64,000 nt of DNA from Flavobacterium circumlabens (GTDB lineage Bacteria > Bacteroidota > Bacteroidia > Flavobacteriales > Flavobacteriaceae): assembly GCF_004345565.1 (NCBI RefSeq), contig NZ_SLWA01000003.1, forward strand, positions 186,001 to 250,000. The letters run 5' to 3'. Under the pieces are notes generated by a model. It saw only the letters and a list, made by a program, of their open reading frames with translations, was not told the DNA's origin and did not search any database. Every line of letters begins with the position of its first letter. Position 1 is the first letter of the stretch. Of the stretch, positions 2,198 to 35,289 are shown one piece after another. Position numbers and translations under genes: made by a program.

Positions 2198-3214
2198 ATG
2201 AATACAACGCTTTTAAAAGAAATGATTACAAAAAATTATGTAAAGGTGAACAAACATCCTGAACATGATTTATACATTTATAATTATACACAAAATGCCC
2301 AATTCGAACGTGTTTGGAATGAGGTAACCTTAGCCTGCAGAGGATTGATTTTAGATCAGAATGATAACGTAATTGCAAGACCTTTTCCTAAGTTTTTCAA
2401 TTTAGGCGAAATGGAAAATCAGGTGCTTCCGGATTCGACTTTTGAAGTATATGACAAAATGGATGGTTCATTAGGAATTTTGTATTGGATCAACGATGTA
2501 CCTTTTATGGCGAGCAGAGGTTCGTTTGCAAGCGACCAGTCCGATAAAGCGAATGAGATGCTGCACGGAAAATACAGAAATTCGTGGTCATTTCTGGATA
2601 AAACTAAAACCTATTTGTTCGAAATTATTTATCCTCAAAACCGAATTGTATTAGATTACGGCGTGGCGGAAGAACTGGTTTTATTGGCGATTGTTGATAT
2701 AAAAACCGGAGTAGAATTTCCATTAGAAGATATTGGTTTCCCTGTGGTTGAAAAATACGACGGAATCAAAGACATTATGACTTTAAAAGGATTGGATGTC
2801 AATAACAAAGAAGGTTTCATCATTAAATACGCGAACAATTTCCGTGTAAAAATTAAATTTGAAGAATACCTTCGTTTACACCGAATCGTCACTCAGGTTT
2901 CCAACGTGAACATCTGGGAATATTTAAAAACCAATCAGCCCATGGAAGAGATTCTGGAACGTGTTCCCGATGAGTTTTTCGACTGGGTAAAACAAACCAA
3001 AGGCGATTTAGAGAATCAATATTCGGTAATTGAAAATCAATGTAAAAACGATTTTAAAATTTTGGAATCGCGCAAGGAAACTGCTTTGTATTTTCTAACT
3101 TGTCAATATTCAGGAGTACTATTTGCGATGCTGGACAACAGGGAGTATTCGGAGATTATCTGGAAAATGATCCGCCCGACATTTGAAAAACCGTTTAATA
3201 AAGGAGAAGAATAA
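2198..3214 (+). CDS. T4 Rnl1-like ATP-dependent RNA ligase
   Basis: A 338-residue nucleotidyltransferase-fold ligase that should join 3'-OH and 5'-phosphate RNA ends with ATP. The diagnostic motifs are in order: adenylated lysine in YDKMDGS (K87), upstream ACRGL (R48), motif III FEIIYP (E142), motif IV KEGFIIK (E205) and motif V VKIK (K218 and K220). Spacing and length fit the Rnl1 family, whose T4 member repairs tRNAs cut in the anticodon loop. The next gene, an end-healing kinase/phosphatase, starts two bases after this stop, so translational coupling is likely. The pair reproduces the T4 Pnkp plus Rnl1 healing-and-sealing pathway. The natural RNA target is not shown by the sequence. Confidence 0.9.
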   Translation: MNTTLLKEMITKNYVKVNKHPEHDLYIYNYTQNAQFERVWNEVTLACRGLILDQNDNVIARPFPKFFNLGEMENQVLPDSTFEVYDKMDGSLGILYWINDVPFMASRGSFASDQSDKANEMLHGKYRNSWSFLDKTKTYLFEIIYPQNRIVLDYGVAEELVLLAIVDIKTGVEFPLEDIGFPVVEKYDGIKDIMTLKGLDVNNKEGFIIKYANNFRVKIKFEEYLRLHRIVTQVSNVNIWEYLKTNQPMEEILERVPDEFFDWVKQTKGDLENQYSVIENQCKNDFKILESRKETALYFLTCQYSGVLFAMLDNREYSEIIWKMIRPTFEKPFNKGEE

Positions 3215-3215
3215 A

Positions 3216-4088
3216 ATGAGAAAAGTAATTTTAATGAAAGGATTGCCGGGAAGTGGAAAATCGACTTTGGCAAAAAAGATAATTGCAGAAAACCCGGAAG
3301 CCTACAAACGAATCAACAGAGATGATTTGCGTGCGATGTTTGATAACGGAATTACCTCTCAAAGCAATGAAAAGTTTGTTAAAAAAGTACGTGATGTATT
3401 AATCGTAAAAGCTTTAGAAGAAGGAAAAAGCATTGTGATAGACGATACCAATTTATCGGAAACCAATCTTAGACGCGTTTCTCAATTGGTTCAGGAATAT
3501 AATGAAAAATTCAATCAAAAGGTTGAAGTTGAAGTGAGAGAAGTAGATACAGCTGTTGCGGTTTGTATTGAAAGAGATGCTTTAAGAGAAAAACCTGTGG
3601 GAGAAAAAGTAATCCGAAAAATGCACAGACAATTTTTTAAAGATTCTCCGGAATACTGCACCCAAAACCCCGACCTGCCAAAAGCCATAATTTGTGATCT
3701 TGACGGAACTTTAGCCTTAATGAACGGACGAAATCCTTTTGACGCCAGCAAATGCGACGAAGACGAAATCAATACTCCGGTGGCGAATGTTCTGAGAAAT
3801 TACAAGAAATTGGGATATCAGATATTGCTGGTTTCGGGAAGAGAAGACCGATACAAAGCACCGACCTTGCGTTTTCTCGAAAAACACGAAATCGAATACG
3901 ATGACCTGATCATGCGTAAAACGCAGGACAACCGAAAAGATTCCATCATCAAAACCGAAATCTATCACGAGTTTATAAAAGACAAGTACTTTGTAGAATT
4001 CGTTTTAGACGACCGAAACCAGGTAGTAGATACGTGGCGAAATGACTTGAAATTGCCGTGCTTCCAGGTGTATTATGGGGATTTTTGA
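3216..4088 (+). CDS. Polynucleotide 5'-kinase/3'-phosphatase (T4 Pnkp-like)
   Basis: Bifunctional RNA end-healing enzyme of 290 residues, close to the 301 of T4 Pnkp. The N-terminal kinase has the P-loop GLPGSGKST (residues 9-17), the catalytic region NRDDLR (D36) and lid arginines ERDALR (about 119-124). The C-terminal HAD phosphatase has DLDGT (161-165), VSGRE (about 206-210) and DDRNQVVDTW (about 265-274). I chose the ATG at 3216 over an upstream in-frame TTG at 3183 because AAGGAGAAG lies at a normal distance before it. It would remove 3'-phosphate or cyclic phosphate and phosphorylate 5'-OH ends for the ligase encoded just upstream. No cytoplasmic export signal is seen. Confidence 0.92.
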   Translation: MRKVILMKGLPGSGKSTLAKKIIAENPEAYKRINRDDLRAMFDNGITSQSNEKFVKKVRDVLIVKALEEGKSIVIDDTNLSETNLRRVSQLVQEYNEKFNQKVEVEVREVDTAVAVCIERDALREKPVGEKVIRKMHRQFFKDSPEYCTQNPDLPKAIICDLDGTLALMNGRNPFDASKCDEDEINTPVANVLRNYKKLGYQILLVSGREDRYKAPTLRFLEKHEIEYDDLIMRKTQDNRKDSIIKTEIYHEFIKDKYFVEFVLDDRNQVVDTWRNDLKLPCFQVYYGDF

Positions 4089-4420
4089 TTGGAAGATGCT
4101 AAGGTGCTAAGTTTCTAAGCAACTAAGTTTTTAAAGTATTAATTTCTCATCTTATGTCATTTCGACGAAGGAGAAATCTTCGCGAGAAGCTCTACAAAGA
4201 TTGGACTATCGTTAGGGAATTATTTGCAAAGATTTACCCCCATTTTATATCATTTCGACGGAGGAGAAATCTTCGTTGCAAGATCGACAAAGTATGGTTT
4301 TTGATTGCGGAGTTACTTGCGAAGATTTCTCCTTCGTCGAAATGACAAACTGTGTGTAAAAAACTTTGCGACTCTGCTCCCGACAACCATCGGAATTACG
4401 AGATTAATAATTAAAGAAAT
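4089..4420. repeat. Palindromic intergenic repeat (TTTCGACGAAGG family)
   Basis: This stretch between the kinase and the tRNA-like element has no gene. Arms at 4155-4183 and 4319-4347 are perfect 29-base inverted copies, with a diverged extra copy at about 4249-4275. A small CCGA/TCGG hairpin follows at 4380-4393. Related copies lie at 1-20 and 46445-46533. Short open frames inside it are translations of the repeat and are not called. Confidence 0.8.
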
Positions 4421-4493
4421 CCAAAAGACGAGGGTTCAAATCCTTCCTGCGCAGCTAATAAGTCGCGGTAGTTTAGCAAGGGAAAACAGTTGG
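4421..4493 (+). ncRNA. Putative circularly permuted tRNA-like RNA
   Basis: Read as RNA, this segment holds tRNA arms in rearranged order. A T-arm comes first: stem 4430-4434 with 4442-4446 and seven-base loop TTCAAAT. Then comes an acceptor-like strand 4447-4451 that pairs with 4464-4468 across a 12-base loop. Next are U8/A9-like T4469-A4470 and a D-arm: GTTT 4471-4474 pairs with AAAC 4484-4487 around loop AGCAAGGGA. Finally GTTGG at 4489-4493 can pair over four bases with CCAA at 4421-4424 as an anticodon stem. The ends therefore fall at the anticodon loop, like a tRNA cut there. No CCA and only five acceptor pairs, so not a canonical tRNA. It sits between repair genes. A chance mosaic remains possible. 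Confidence 0.5.
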
Positions 4494-4649
4494 TTTTTTT
4501 AAAGGAATAAAGAAGCACAGTTATACGTTTCAAAAAAAAAAGAACTTGTCACTTAACGCCTTCAAGGCAAAAAATAAATAATAATTAAAGACTCAAAGCG
4601 GATAAAACTCTGAACCTTTGCCCCTTTGAGCCTTTGCAACTTAAAAAAA
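4494..4649. other. Spacer between tRNA-like element and tatD
   Basis: A run of seven T at 4494-4500 directly follows the tRNA-like element and could be a termination or processing signal. The remainder is A/T-rich and includes fragments of the 'cctttg' low-complexity intergenic repeat at about 4611-4640. No gene is seen. Confidence 0.4.
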
Positions 4650-5450
4650 ATGAATACATACATAGACATAGGAATTAATTTAACCAATAAACAATTCCAA
4701 AACGACATAGACGATGTCGTACAAGACGCACTCGATGCCGATGTAGCAAAAATGATACTCACCGGCACCAGCGTCCGAAACAGTGAAGCCTCGGCTGAAA
4801 TCGCTAGGCAATATCCCGGAATACTGTACGCAACAGCCGGAATTCACCCGCATGATGCGAAGAGTTTTGATGCGCAGAGCATTTCAAAACTGCGCCATTT
4901 ATTAAAGCAGAAACACGTAGTTTCAGTAGGCGAGTGCGGACTCGATTTTGATCGTGACTTTTCGCCCAGAAATGTACAGGAAAGCTGCTACAAAGCCCAG
5001 TTAGAACTGGCGATTGAAGTCCAGAAACCGTTGTTCCTGCACGAAAGAGCCGCTTTTGCAAAGTTTATGGACATTACCAAAAACTATTTGCCGCAATTGC
5101 CAAAAGCAGTCGTGCATTGTTTTACCGGAAGTCTGCCCGAAGCCAAAACCTATCTCGATAACGGATTCTATCTGGGTTTTACCGGAGCGATATCCGACAG
5201 TAAACGTTTTGAGCATTTAAAAGAGGTGATTCAATACGTACCGCTCGACCGAATGATGATCGAAACCGATGCGCCCTTCATGCTCCCGAAAAATGTAGCG
5301 AACAGCCTCCTGAAAAAATACCACGAACGCCGTTGCGAACCTGCTTTTCTGCTTTTTGTGGCGGGAACGGTGGCGCAGTTTAAAAGGATTTCTTTAGATA
5401 AAGTGGCGGAGGAAACTACGAGGAATGCTAAGGAGTTTTTTGGGATTTAG
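4650..5450 (+). CDS. tatD: TatD family metal-dependent hydrolase
   Basis: A TIM-barrel hydrolase of 266 residues from the ATG at 4650; an earlier in-frame start at 4626 lies in intergenic repeat sequence. Recognisable motifs are the N-terminal YIDIGINLTNKQF, which is the TatD-proper form, GIHPHDA, VGECGLDFDRDF, LHERAAF, VVHCFTGS and IETDAPFMLP, covering the metal ligands. E. coli TatD (260 residues) is reported as a 3'-5' exonuclease on single-stranded nucleic acid, so an end-trimming role in the surrounding RNA-repair locus is plausible. TatD is also a common housekeeping gene, so the link is positional only. It has its own leader of repeat-derived sequence. Confidence 0.9.
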   Translation: MNTYIDIGINLTNKQFQNDIDDVVQDALDADVAKMILTGTSVRNSEASAEIARQYPGILYATAGIHPHDAKSFDAQSISKLRHLLKQKHVVSVGECGLDFDRDFSPRNVQESCYKAQLELAIEVQKPLFLHERAAFAKFMDITKNYLPQLPKAVVHCFTGSLPEAKTYLDNGFYLGFTGAISDSKRFEHLKEVIQYVPLDRMMIETDAPFMLPKNVANSLLKKYHERRCEPAFLLFVAGTVAQFKRISLDKVAEETTRNAKEFFGI

Positions 5451-5600: not shown

Positions 5601-6353
5601 ATGAAAGAAAAAATACTAGAGAAATTAAAAGAAATAGAAAAAAGCAAGAATGTAGAAATACTTTTGGCTGTAGAATCAGGAAGTCGTGCCTGGGGATTTG
5701 CTTCTCCGGACAGCGATTATGACATCCGTTTTATATACAAACACAAACCGGAGTATTATTTATCGCTTTGGGAAAAACCGGATGTAATAGAATTCATGAC
5801 CGAAGACGATCTTGACGGTTCCGGTTGGGACTTACGGAAAGCCTTAAAGTTGTTAGCAAAATCTAACGCACCTTTGATCGAGTGGTTGTTTTCATCTGTG
5901 GTGTATTATCAAAATGATGATTTCGTCAAACAAATGCAGGAGGTAGCCGTAGCCTGTTTTTCGCCAATAGCAGTTTTACATCATTATTTGGGAACGACAA
6001 AAAACTTTATGGAGGTTTGTGAAATGGAAGAAGTAAAACTAAAAAGTTATTTTTACGCCTTACGCACTGCTTTAGCAGGAAAATGGATTATAGAAAATGA
6101 TACTTTTCCTCCAGTTGCTTTTGCTGATTTATTGCCAATTGCGCCACAAAATATACAAGAGAAAATAATAGAATTACAAAATATAAAGGCCAATCAGGAC
6201 GAAAAATACCTGCATCCAAAAGAAGTTTTAATAACTGATTTTTTATTGGAAACAGTACAATTTAATCAGGAAAATGCCAGTAAGTTGGGAAGTGGGAAGA
6301 AGTTGAGTGAACAGTTGGATTTGTTTTTTAGAAATTTAATTAATAAAATATGA
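5601..6353 (+). CDS. RlaP-like nucleotidyltransferase (first copy)
   Basis: A 250-residue polymerase-beta-fold nucleotidyltransferase with GSRAWGFASPDSDYDIRF (G27-S28, D39, D41), which is the signature of the PF10127/RlaP group found beside RNA ligases. The ATG at 5601 is preferred to the TTG at 5589 because that TTG lies inside the predicted -7 promoter box. The stop overlaps the next start as ATGA (6350-6353), indicating translational coupling with the OLD-family gene. In comparative-genomics work RlaP is described as an RNA-ligase-associated nucleotidyltransferase; its reaction was not defined to my knowledge. Here it probably modifies RNA ends or carries out a conflict-related transfer. 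Confidence 0.8.
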   Translation: MKEKILEKLKEIEKSKNVEILLAVESGSRAWGFASPDSDYDIRFIYKHKPEYYLSLWEKPDVIEFMTEDDLDGSGWDLRKALKLLAKSNAPLIEWLFSSVVYYQNDDFVKQMQEVAVACFSPIAVLHHYLGTTKNFMEVCEMEEVKLKSYFYALRTALAGKWIIENDTFPPVAFADLLPIAPQNIQEKIIELQNIKANQDEKYLHPKEVLITDFLLETVQFNQENASKLGSGKKLSEQLDLFFRNLINKI

Positions 6354-8341
6354 AAAGTTTTTACGATTTAATTTTTTTTAAAAGTACTGGATTTAAAGAT
6401 TATTTCTTGAATGAAGAAGAAGAACCTATGTCTTTCTTACCAAAATTCAATAAGATTAATATCATTGTCGGAGCAAATAATAGTGGGAAAAGCAGATTTA
6501 TTAGAAATTTAATGTCTTTTCAAAATTTGGAAGGTGTTATTGATTTAGCTAAAATTAGAGTTTTTGTTCCTTTATATAATGAACAAGTCGCTGAAGCAAA
6601 TAAATTAATAGAATCAAATATTACAACATATCAGTATCGATCGGACAATACATATTATTCAGGCGGAACAAATCCTGATTTACAAAATGTAAAATTACTA
6701 TCTAATAATTATTTAAAGACTTTAGATATTGATTTATTTAAGGAATTTTCATCAATAATAAATGCTAATAAAAACAGTATAAATAATTTAAGTCATCTCG
6801 GTGTTAAAAATTTATATTTAAGAGATTTTAATGAAATCGATAACTTATTTTTGAAGGAATATAAAAGTATTAAAAGGTATTACATACCAACTTTAAGAAC
6901 AGCTCATTCCTTGTTTAATTTTGATTTAGAGAAGTATTCTAAAATTGAGACTGATGTTTTTTTAAAAACACTTAACAATTATTACAAATTGGATAAAATT
7001 GATGTAGAAGTTTTTACCGGAATTCATCTATACAAAGAAATTTTAAATGCAAGAAATTCAAAAAGAGAAATAAGACAGTCATTTGAAAAATTTGAAAATT
7101 TTATTGGGAAATATTTTTTTGATAATAAAAAGATTGATATTGTTGCCGAATTTAATAAGGATGAGAGTTTAATTGGAAACAATAATTTAGAAAATATTAG
7201 TGTTTATATTGAAGGTGATAAAGAAACTAGAGAGCTTTATGAGTTAGGAGATGGAATCCAGGCAATAATTATATTAATGTATAAAATTTATATGGCTGAA
7301 TCTGATTCTTTCATTTTTATTGACGAACCTGAAATAAATTTACATCCAGGAATGCAGAGATTGTTTTTAGAACAAATAACTGAAAATAAGGACTTAGAAA
7401 AGAAAAATCTAACTTACATAATTACTACACATTCTAATCATTTTTTAGATTTAACTATTGAAAAAGAAAATGTTTCTATATATTCATTTTCTCCAAAGAA
7501 AATTATAAATGGAGATAAACAATTTATAATTAAAAATGTAAATCGAGGAGATAATAAATTGCTTCAAGATTTAGGAGTTAATAATTCATCAGTTTTCATG
7601 GCGAATTGTAGTATTTGGGTTGAAGGAATATCTGATAGAAATTATATAAAAGCATTTTTAAAATCATATTGTCATTCAGTTGGAAAATCTTATCCTAAAG
7701 AAGATATAGATTTTGCATTTTTTGAATACGCAGGCTCAAATATTGATCATTATATTTTTAATGACAAAGTAGAAAAGGAAGATGTGGAGATTGTTTTAAA
7801 TGACATAAAAGCTTTGGCAATTAGTAATAGAATATTTCTTTTAGCAGATTCTGATGCTTCTAAACAAAATAGTAAAAAAGGTCTAAGATTAAAAGAACTT
7901 GAAGATGCAAAAGTTGATAATTTTATTCCTAAAGTTATTTGGAATACAAGAGAGGTTGAAAATCTTTTAACTAATGAAATGTGGAAAGAAATTCTCATTG
8001 AGTTTTGTAATAAAACTTTAGTTAAGTCAAATGAAGCGGATATTTTATTAAAAATTGATAAAGCATTTTCCGAAGTCGATTATTCAGGTTTTGCAAAAAA
8101 ATATGTTGGAGAATTTCTTGAAGAAATAAGAAATAAAATGGGAAAGATTTCTTCAACGTTTATAGTTAATCAATCTGCTTATGAAGTAAAGTCAGATGGT
8201 TCATTTGGGACAATAATTAACAAGCGAGAATTAAGTGAGTTAGTTTTTAATAAAAATTTTTCATGGGAAATCTTATCTAAAAACAAAGAAATTGAAAAAT
8301 TAACAATCGAAATTTATAATTTCATTACGCAAAAAAAATGA
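6350..8341 (+). CDS. OLD-family ATPase with TOPRIM nuclease domain
   Basis: A 663-residue protein. The ABC/SMC-type ATPase has Walker A GANNSGKS (residues 41-48), Walker B FIFIDEPEINLHPG (about 319-332) and the switch histidine in TTHSNHF (about 358-364). A TOPRIM-like domain follows with WVEGISDRNYIKAF (about 421-434) and LLADSDAS (about 496-503). This matches OLD (overcoming lysogenization defect) nucleases, several of which act in phage defence, for example GajA. It overlaps the genes on both sides by ATGA and lies between two RlaP-like genes, so the three probably work as a unit. The gene looks more A/T-rich than the flanking ligase and tatD genes, hinting at separate acquisition. Confidence 0.82.
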   Translation: MKSFYDLIFFKSTGFKDYFLNEEEEPMSFLPKFNKINIIVGANNSGKSRFIRNLMSFQNLEGVIDLAKIRVFVPLYNEQVAEANKLIESNITTYQYRSDNTYYSGGTNPDLQNVKLLSNNYLKTLDIDLFKEFSSIINANKNSINNLSHLGVKNLYLRDFNEIDNLFLKEYKSIKRYYIPTLRTAHSLFNFDLEKYSKIETDVFLKTLNNYYKLDKIDVEVFTGIHLYKEILNARNSKREIRQSFEKFENFIGKYFFDNKKIDIVAEFNKDESLIGNNNLENISVYIEGDKETRELYELGDGIQAIIILMYKIYMAESDSFIFIDEPEINLHPGMQRLFLEQITENKDLEKKNLTYIITTHSNHFLDLTIEKENVSIYSFSPKKIINGDKQFIIKNVNRGDNKLLQDLGVNNSSVFMANCSIWVEGISDRNYIKAFLKSYCHSVGKSYPKEDIDFAFFEYAGSNIDHYIFNDKVEKEDVEIVLNDIKALAISNRIFLLADSDASKQNSKKGLRLKELEDAKVDNFIPKVIWNTREVENLLTNEMWKEILIEFCNKTLVKSNEADILLKIDKAFSEVDYSGFAKKYVGEFLEEIRNKMGKISSTFIVNQSAYEVKSDGSFGTIINKRELSELVFNKNFSWEILSKNKEIEKLTIEIYNFITQKK

Positions 8342-9396
8342 CCATTTACGATTTAAAATCCCAAACCCTAATCCTCTTCGAAGTTATTTCAGGAAGTAAA
8401 TCTTTTGGGTTAAATACACCAACATCAGATACCGATATAAAAGGCGTTTATTATCTGCCCAAAGAAAAGTTTTTTGGGTTAGAGTATATTCCGCAGATCA
8501 GTAATGACACCAACGATGAGGTTTATTATGAGATTGGTCGTTTTGTAGAATTACTGCTTAAAAATAATCCTAATATACTCGAGATTCTGGCTTCGCCGGA
8601 AGATTGTGTTTTGTACAAACATCCGTTAATGGAGCATTTACAGATAGAAGATTTTTTATCTAAACTCTGCAAAGACTCTTTTGCCGGTTATGCCGTAACG
8701 CAAATCAAAAAGGCGAGAGGTTTAAATAAGAAAATTGTAAACCCAATGGCAAAGGAAAAGAAAAGTCTTTTGGATTTCTGTTATATTCTTAAAGGTTATG
8801 AAACTGTTGGGGCCAATACTTTTTTAGCAGAAAATAATTTAAAGCAGGAACAATGCGGTTTGGTGAATTTGCCTAATTCAAAAGGAATGTTTGCGTTGTT
8901 TTACGATCAGGATAAAACGTTAGGTTATAAAGGAATAATTCAAAAAGAAAGCTCGAATGAAGTTTCACTTTCTTCAATTCCTAAAAACGAAAAATTAATT
9001 GGTTATTTATCCTGTAATCAGGATGGATATTCTAAATATTGCAAAGAATATACGGAGTACTGGAGTTGGATAGAGAAACGAAACGAAGATCGTTACAATA
9101 CGAATCAGCAACACGGTAAAAATTACGATAGCAAAAACATGATGCATACGATTCGCCTTTTGCAAACTGCTGAACAAATTCTATCAACAGGGAAATTAAA
9201 TATTAGAGTTCCTAATCGCGAAGAATTACTGGATATAAAAGCCGGAAATAAAGAATACGATGATTTACTGGAGATGGCAGATAATTTGATCGTGTCGATA
9301 GAAAACCATTATCTGACATCAATTTTACCTGAAAAACCGGATGAAGAAAAGGTAATTCAGACTTTAATCAAAATCAGAGAAGAATTATATCAATAA
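8338..9396 (+). CDS. RlaP-like nucleotidyltransferase (second copy)
   Basis: A 352-residue member of the same nucleotidyltransferase group as the gene at 5601, with VISGSKSFGLNTPTSDTDIKG (G19-S20, D31, D33). It is about 100 residues longer; the C-terminal part contains the helical region WSWIEKRNEDRY and NMMHTIRLLQTAEQIL, typical of this family. The start overlaps the OLD gene as ATGA. The two copies are clearly diverged, so they are paralogues or separate imports rather than a recent duplication. A stem-loop follows at 9403-9430 and would end the operon. Confidence 0.8.
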   Translation: MTIYDLKSQTLILFEVISGSKSFGLNTPTSDTDIKGVYYLPKEKFFGLEYIPQISNDTNDEVYYEIGRFVELLLKNNPNILEILASPEDCVLYKHPLMEHLQIEDFLSKLCKDSFAGYAVTQIKKARGLNKKIVNPMAKEKKSLLDFCYILKGYETVGANTFLAENNLKQEQCGLVNLPNSKGMFALFYDQDKTLGYKGIIQKESSNEVSLSSIPKNEKLIGYLSCNQDGYSKYCKEYTEYWSWIEKRNEDRYNTNQQHGKNYDSKNMMHTIRLLQTAEQILSTGKLNIRVPNREELLDIKAGNKEYDDLLEMADNLIVSIENHYLTSILPEKPDEEKVIQTLIKIREELYQ

Positions 9397-34779: not shown

Positions 34780-34971
34780 TTTATCAGAGGAAATACACTG
34801 AAATAAACTGGCTTAAGATAGTATTAAATTAATCTTAGAATGTTTTAAGGATTAAGTGCAGAGAAGAAAAAAGGGGCTTTTTACCCTGTAAAAAACAGGA
34901 AATGACATAAGCGTTATAAATTCTGTACAGGGTAGTTTTGAAATGAATTAAATGCGTAAGCCGAAAAGCAA

Positions 34972-35289
34972 ATGAGTAGGCATTATTTTAAAAAATACAA
35001 AATGGAAACAGCTTTCTTTTTGATAATGGGATGGTGCGGTACAGGTTATCCCGGATGGTTAAGGGATTTATTGAAAAAATGGCCACCGCCGCCGCCGGAT
35101 CCGGAACCATGGCGTCATATCAGCATTATTGTTTTGGGATTAGTCGCAGGATTAGTTGGCGGACATTTCTTTAGTAATGCCATTGCAGAAAATCAGTTTT
35201 TTGCAGGTCAGCGTACAATTGCTGCCGGACTGTTTGCTTTCGGAGCATCAAATGTTGCCACCGTAATCGCTTTATCACTGAAACGTTAA
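34972..35289 (+). CDS. Small membrane protein with proline-rich linker
   Basis: A 105-residue protein with a hydrophobic N-terminal segment (METAFFLIMGWCGTGYPGWL), a linker KKWPPPPPDPEPW, then two membrane helices (ISIIVLGLVAGLVGGHFF and TIAAGLFAFGASNVATVIAL). The start may be ATG 34972 or ATG 35002. A -7 box TAGTTTTG at 34933-34940 and a strong terminator at 35296-35330 bracket it, supporting a real single-gene unit. Function unknown. Confidence 0.6.
   Translation: MSRHYFKKYKMETAFFLIMGWCGTGYPGWLRDLLKKWPPPPPDPEPWRHISIIVLGLVAGLVGGHFFSNAIAENQFFAGQRTIAAGLFAFGASNVATVIALSLKR

Follow-up and report, generated by a model that had tools for sequence, protein, structure and literature searches.

The role of the tRNA-like Y RNAs found in RNA-repair operons is unsettled and is usually explained through Ro60. 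YrlA, one of them, is a target of the tRNA-modifying enzymes DusA and TruB and has a link to PNPase. A tRNA-like RNA was reportedly also found linked to SPFH/Band-7 scaffolds in the survey of RNA-repair systems by Burroughs and Aravind in 2016. In the excerpts consulted of two publications, YrlA is described as having D, T and acceptor arms that sit on a stem formed by its paired ends, with the stem binding the Ro60 homologue, and as encoded in the rtcBA operons of some bacteria (PMC8394870, PMC7790460). An excerpt of the latter gives the suggestion of Hughes et al. that the tRNA-like part of YrlA might competitively inhibit an anticodon nuclease (PMC7790460). A Pseudomonas rtc locus with an SPFH gene has likewise been published (excerpt of PMC13086221). 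Archaea and algae have circularly permuted tRNA genes (excerpt of PMC3978253), with the 3' half ahead of the 5' half.

We analysed a 64-kb stretch (the window) of a 5.76-Mb Flavobacterium genome comprising 33 contigs, in which a tRNA-mimic RNA with a conserved core at positions 4417–4497, measured from helix end to helix end, was recognised by covariation and by model matches in 20 loci. It lies downstream of genes for an Rnl1-type RNA ligase (2198–3214; PF09511, E = 1.4e-15) and a polynucleotide kinase-phosphatase (Pnkp, 3216–4088; PF25109, E = 2.4e-50, plus AAA_33). It is followed by genes for a TatD-family nuclease (4650–5450; PF01026, E = 2.9e-69), an RlaP nucleotidyltransferase (5601–6353; PF10127, E = 1.3e-74), an AAA ATPase (6350–8341) and a second RlaP-matching protein (8338–9396; PF10127, E = 2.3e-23). 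All of these are on the forward strand, as are the RNA and three genes further upstream, of which two are uncharacterised (175–768 and 1415–2155) and one is weakly SUKH-1-like (876–1412). An earlier note on this DNA had placed the RNA in an RNA-repair operon: the repair genes (ligase, Pnkp, TatD, two RlaP matches) are present, and their order and strand suggest a single operon. Repeated ATTTCTCCTTCGTCGAAATGAC-type sequences were seen between Pnkp and the RNA, at 4140–4350.

The 5' strand of a terminal, anticodon-like helix (4417–4424) pairs with its 3' strand (4490–4497). Between them lie the place of tRNA nucleotide 48 (4429), a T-arm (4430–4446; stem GAGGG/CCTTC, loop TTCAAAT, or UUCAAAU in the RNA), an acceptor-like stem (4447–4451 with 4464–4468; CTGCG/CGCGG, including one G-U pair) with a 12-nt loop that carries UAAG at 4459–4462, a U8-A9 linker (4469–4470) and a D-arm (4471–4487; stem GTTT/AAAC, loop AGCAAGGGA). 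C4429 and G4476 are able to form the tRNA tertiary pair 48-15. The T-arm, acceptor-like stem, T-A at the U8/A9 place and D-arm had all been proposed by the earlier note, and each lies where it was drawn when read and register-checked on a comparative alignment (A4) of 20 rows, 19 of them distinct, from 19 genomes and a named locus of F. branchiicola (L126). The terminal stem is also present; instead of the four pairs proposed (4421–4424 with 4490–4493) it spans eight positions with one mismatch, T4420-T4494 in the window, which is a standard pair in 10 of the 19 distinct rows. The permuted order of T-arm, acceptor and D-arm, with the ends at the anticodon position, is conserved and covarying. 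All features of a tRNA elbow were found (T-loop UUCRA, U8, A14, G18, G19 and pair 15-48): U8, A9, A14 and the tested T-loop places did not vary among the 19 distinct rows, A21 was kept in 18 and G18-G19 in 17. UAAG was present in the acceptor loop of every row (20/20), at loop lengths of 11–14 nt.

The RNA shares the order of the halves with permuted tRNA genes. Unlike those genes, the RNA has no anticodon loop, no 7-bp acceptor and no CCA position, and a role in translation is not expected. A canonical or permuted tRNA gene is not supported: an anticodon arm with a 7-nt loop is absent, the terminal helix having open ends, and the acceptor is a stem of 4–5 bp capped by its loop of 11–14 nt and lacks a CCA end. 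ARAGORN called no tRNA at the site, and Rfam at gathering scores returned nothing there; elsewhere in the window, a DUF805b cis-regulatory RNA (RF02914, 37.7 bits against a threshold of 35.6) was observed at 34951–34982. Folding of 4400–4520 as a single sequence gave no support (MFE −18.7, with shuffles averaging −18.63; z = −0.03), and one sequence alone was unconvincing because its fold was no better than those of shuffles. No description of the RNA appeared among the matches listed in full-text searches of open-licence papers, and viral contigs scanned for the pattern gave no match.

Relatives were sought by a DNA search of 150 congeners (own genome included), in which at least 145 genomes had a match at E up to 1. 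At least eight genomes, the own one included, had a match with an E-value below 1e-7 and at least 58 of 101 bases covered; the other matches among those listed were short and were dropped. A covariance model (R1) built on eight sequences, the own and seven clear DNA copies, gave matches with an E-value of 0.1 or lower in 130 of 398 genus genomes, and with 50 bits or more in 19 of 398. The 19 genomes were kept together with L126; eight of these 20 loci had trained R1, so their scores follow by construction. Nine loci among the weaker matches were examined, and 102 genomes were left out. The nine were six junctions of neighbouring tRNA genes (L219–L224), two SPFH loci (L216, L217) and one degenerate copy (L218). 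An E-value limit removed eight of the 28 rows of the preceding alignment (A3) to give A4: L216, L217, L218, two L213 rows on tRNA-gene junctions, the unassigned L213:470, and L210:15954 and L211:1655, both shortly before SPFH genes. With a second model (R2), matches at E up to 1e-4 were obtained in 30 of 329 genomes of the family and 12 of 395 of the phylum, numbers that are not a tally of true members outside the genus. Of its 39 new loci, 31 were on called tRNA genes and eight elsewhere: five with SPFH downstream (L225, L232, L236, L239, L258), one with TROVE (L261), one with no hit (L262) and L254. The last is a further member outside A4 (87.3 bits), with Hen1-ligase-Pnkp upstream and TatD downstream.

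In A4, whose rows were fitted to the model's structure and are biased towards it, and whose related rows inflate such scores, 88.9% of cells were paired, compared with 77.9% in shuffles and 33.5–56.9% when the strands were slid. Both sides had changed in 16 of 23 tested pairs (9.5 in shuffles), and the covariation score was reached by none of 500 shuffles. One of five measures was not above shuffles, namely the number of further pair types (34 versus 31.8, reached by 105 of 500). The strongest evidence came from the acceptor stem, where each of the five pairs has changes on both sides, one of them taking C-G, A-U, G-C and U-G among relatives. In the terminal helix seven of eight pairs change on both sides, with 82.2% of cells paired. 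The D-arm is 97.4% paired; its stem hardly varies and so contributes little covariation evidence. Position 4429 covaries with 4476: this pair 15-48, which lies outside the model structure, is C-G in nine, U-A in nine and C-A in one of 19 rows. Its state switches at least four times on a tree from which its two columns were left out. Relatedness contributes to this covariation, since the adjacent column 70 has about equal mutual information. The earlier note had made its reading depend on conservation and covariation of the stems in related loci; the stems were conserved and compensatory changes were found. The fold is supported by covariation, and comparison of relatives confirmed the feature at 4417–4497 as real at the level of sequence. 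The same data bear on whether it could be a decayed YrlA or tRNA fragment, functionless and carried along with the flanking genes. The patchy distribution (19 of 398 genus genomes at the 50-bit level) and the degenerate copy in L218 would fit such decay, which is nonetheless very improbable: the covariation, with 16 of 23 pairs changed on both sides, and the fixed UAAG largely refute it, and the RNA is 91% identical to that of L041 amid unrelated flanks.

The best Rfam match of the RNA was YrlA (RF02553), full length and in the same register (22.7 bits, E = 0.008, with a 211-base query), below the YrlA gathering threshold of 69 bits. This score varies with query length: longer queries brought up YrlA in 3 of 19 related loci (E up to 10; 22.6–23.6 bits), and L007, one of seven loci, gave 25.8 bits at the same place as L179, which was unlisted in the longer-query search. 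Applied to the entire own genome, the YrlA model did not list the RNA even with E-values of up to 10 allowed. Two weak matches elsewhere in the genome (L082, L083) were rejected; whole-genome YrlA matches were not used as evidence, since 13 of 14 control genomes match YrlA at an equally lax limit. The topology is that of YrlA (T-arm, loop-closed acceptor, D-arm, ends paired together), the tRNA elbow residues are shared, and, as described for YrlA of some bacteria in the excerpts consulted (PMC8394870, PMC7790460), the RNA sits at RNA-repair genes. Unlike YrlA, it stays far below the gathering score, lacks the putative Ro60-linked motif, occurs in a genome without TROVE, is tied to ligase cassettes and not to Ro60, and has a fixed UAAG in the acceptor loop. 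Our interpretation of these sequence comparisons is that the RNA is a relative or analogue of YrlA that is independent of Ro60.

TROVE was absent from the own genome and present in only two of the 20 loci (L046, L206), so the RNA is not as a rule encoded with Ro60/TROVE. Eleven RNA-bearing genomes were searched both for TROVE and for a 746-aa scaffold protein. TROVE was found in one (G068) and the 746-aa protein in four (own, G004, G042, G136); neither exceeded the cut-off in six (G013, G040, G048, G056, G139, G141), G040 having a sub-threshold TROVE match. The motif TTACTTC, a putative Ro60-linked motif that is our own reading of the scaffold-linked arrays of congeners, occurred within 60 nt of the RNA in none of the 20 loci. 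All six loci with both the scaffold gene and the RNA (own, L041, L042, L126, L046, L206) have a TTACTTC-repeat array 2–9 kb upstream.

The gene of the 746-aa protein lies just left of the window (L094:2537–4777; G000:C3:183536–185773) and is preceded by a tandem array (L094:2100–2530; motif GGTCAA...TTACTTC) of Y-RNA-like elements, some with tRNA-like arms. A lone Y-RNA-like element was also observed within the window at 781–850 (GTGTCGTCAGGAAATGG...CTTCG...CCATTCCT...TTACCTC), in this genome without TROVE; it resembles the array elements beside TROVE genes of congeners (L074, L075). Searches found the protein in 21 of 150 congeneric genomes as well as at 80 named loci, most of them in Bacteroidota. 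Its model, made from 22 relatives, had a mean pLDDT of 80.7, and the domain at its C-terminus resembles TerD (Z up to 13.2). Over the longer chain, three Ro60 entries were among the best VIA-align matches, with Z = 7.4, 7.3 and 6.8 over 271–328 residues and 5.4 for the next match, where values below 8 denote a possibly common arrangement. Foldseek gave no PDB match at E 0.001, an absence that excludes nothing, and the nearest NCBIfam model was NF041916 (RING_SCO0854; E = 3e-38, below the model cut-off). Judging from the model, the protein may be an unrecognised Ro60 analogue with a Ro60-like helical ring.

RNAs linked to SPFH genes form a second point of comparison. In two congeners (L216, L217; about 41 bits with R1) the order is WYL-type regulator, tRNA-like RNA, SPFH/Band-7 (PF01145, E = 9e-32) and RtcB. 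The five SPFH loci of other genera carry permuted tRNA-like modules upstream of SPFH, some in tandem, and the RNA of L225 also has UAAG; the SPFH-upstream stretches of these loci are about 1.4–1.7 kb. Within Flavobacterium, YrlA-shaped stretches were seen 0.5–0.8 kb before SPFH genes at L109:21329, L138:7039, L210:15954 and L211:1655, and another at L101:21539, where any SPFH gene would lie beyond the stretch covered. L210 and L211 hold an SPFH-type RNA and a window-type RNA in one stretch, as separate copies. No SPFH match was found in the 64-kb window, and SPFH adjoined the RNA in none of the 20 loci, three of which (L208, L210, L211) have SPFH 7–9 kb away at the stretch edge. Unlike the SPFH-linked RNAs, the RNA described here lies downstream of ligase genes. 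The scores of the SPFH set (41–51 bits) overlap that of tRNA-gene junctions (41.9 bits, L213); common descent is therefore unproven, and it is their location, not their score, that speaks for these RNAs.

The gene directly upstream of the RNA was a repair gene in 19 of 20 loci. It belonged to RtcB in seven (L041, L046, L047, L210–L213), an RtcB-like protein of 28% identity in one (L207), Rnl1-Pnkp in five (own, L042, L043, L205, L206), Hen1-ligase-Pnkp in four (L044, L209, L126, L215) and the phosphatase part of Pnkp alone in two (L045, L208). L126 and L215 have an additional Rnl1 gene further upstream, and the Pnkp of L215 is in two pieces. In the remaining locus (L214) the RNA was present with no repair genes around it. 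Downstream, TatD starts within about 1.3 kb in ten loci and RlaP within 0.2 kb in four more. The Hen1-ligase-Pnkp cassette of the four loci recalls the Pnkp1-Rnl-Hen1 complex; in the excerpt of its description no RNA part is mentioned, unlike in the repair loci here (PMC4411300).

Two pairs of loci indicate that the RNA persists through exchange of the upstream ligase genes. The RNAs of the window and L041 are 91% identical, whereas the 1500 bases upstream have no similarity (Rnl1-Pnkp versus RtcB). The downstream flanks are unrelated until a displaced TatD, so that the RNA is an island of conservation. L044 and L046 share an RNA of 92% identity and downstream sequence of 85%, and their upstream regions are without similarity (Hen1-ligase-Pnkp versus RtcB). 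Such exchange makes it less likely that the role of the RNA is tied to one particular ligase. It also weighs on the idea that the ligase of the operon has the RNA as its substrate or product, the helix-held ends of the RNA at the site of anticodon nucleases being healed and sealed into a circular RNA. The topology does place the ends at the anticodon site, RNA ligases are neighbours, and from the topology alone circularisation is possible. Yet the RNA is also kept where the neighbouring enzymes differ in end chemistry, where only a phosphatase remnant is left (L045, L208) and where repair genes are missing (L214), and we consider such a substrate or product improbable. Conversely, among eight close Rnl1 loci in the 150 congeners the RNA occurred in only three (own, G004, G042), and reading the gap after Pnkp in the five without a DNA match (L048–L052) found no such RNA. 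Rnl1-Pnkp thus does not need the RNA, which is optional. No protein family that was sought is common to all 20 loci, and none stands out as a partner.

The spacing of the RNA to its neighbouring genes differs widely. Its terminal helix begins 2–6 nt after the upstream stop codon in three of 20 loci (L045, L207, L208), and the next ATG follows 20–21 nt beyond the helix in three (L044, L046, L210); the corresponding values for the window are 328 and 152 nt. TAnnTTTG, the promoter motif of Bacteroidota, was absent from the 60 nt upstream in all 22 loci examined. Given the tight gene spacing in some loci and the missing promoter motif, the RNA is probably part of the repair-operon transcript, from which it would be excised or in which it would be used in place.

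This embedding makes a cis-acting element a serious rival. The permuted order would give the mRNA a tRNA-shaped fold without free ends, which might mark a processing site or control the stability or expression of flanking genes, as tRNA-like operators do. Besides the close spacing in the loci just named and the promoter-like motif missing from 22 of 22, the position of the RNA agrees with this, since in 14 of 20 loci it is flanked by ligase genes on one side and by TatD or RlaP on the other; so do the similarly shaped RNAs upstream of SPFH genes. However, the RNA was kept when upstream genes were replaced (between the window and L041 the near downstream as well), and the distances range from 2 to 328 nt to the upstream stop and from 20 to 371 nt to the next ATG. 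On balance we regard a cis-acting role as rather unlikely.

The reading we favour, with a probability of roughly 0.5, is that the RNA mimics a tRNA without being cleavable and binds tRNA damage or repair enzymes, serving as a docking site or a decoy, whichever ligase cassette is present. Positions 4417–4497 would copy the body of a tRNA, with T-arm, D-arm, elbow contacts and a short acceptor stem. The loop with the fixed UAAG caps the acceptor, and both ends leave through the extended anticodon-like helix. The topology is that of YrlA, but the RNA stands alone, without the motif of the congeners' Ro60-linked RNAs. Cut out of the repair-operon transcript or acting within it, the RNA could be bound by proteins that read the tRNA elbow, while charging, translation and cleavage in an anticodon loop would not be possible. 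Its transcription, excision, binding partner and function we infer. More tentatively, the RNA may represent a Ro60-independent family of tRNA mimics absent from Rfam, the constant RNA of loci whose cassettes (RtcB, Rnl1-Pnkp, Hen1-ligase-Pnkp) are exchanged. It would then be a shared, uncleavable stand-in for damaged tRNA, with the UAAG loop replacing the acceptor end, and possibly processed by the ligases.

A YrlA-shaped mimic without the Ro60-linked motif that stays constant across chemically different ligases would separate the tRNA-mimic part from Ro60. The locus would allow a role in tRNA repair to be tested by the removal of 81 nt.
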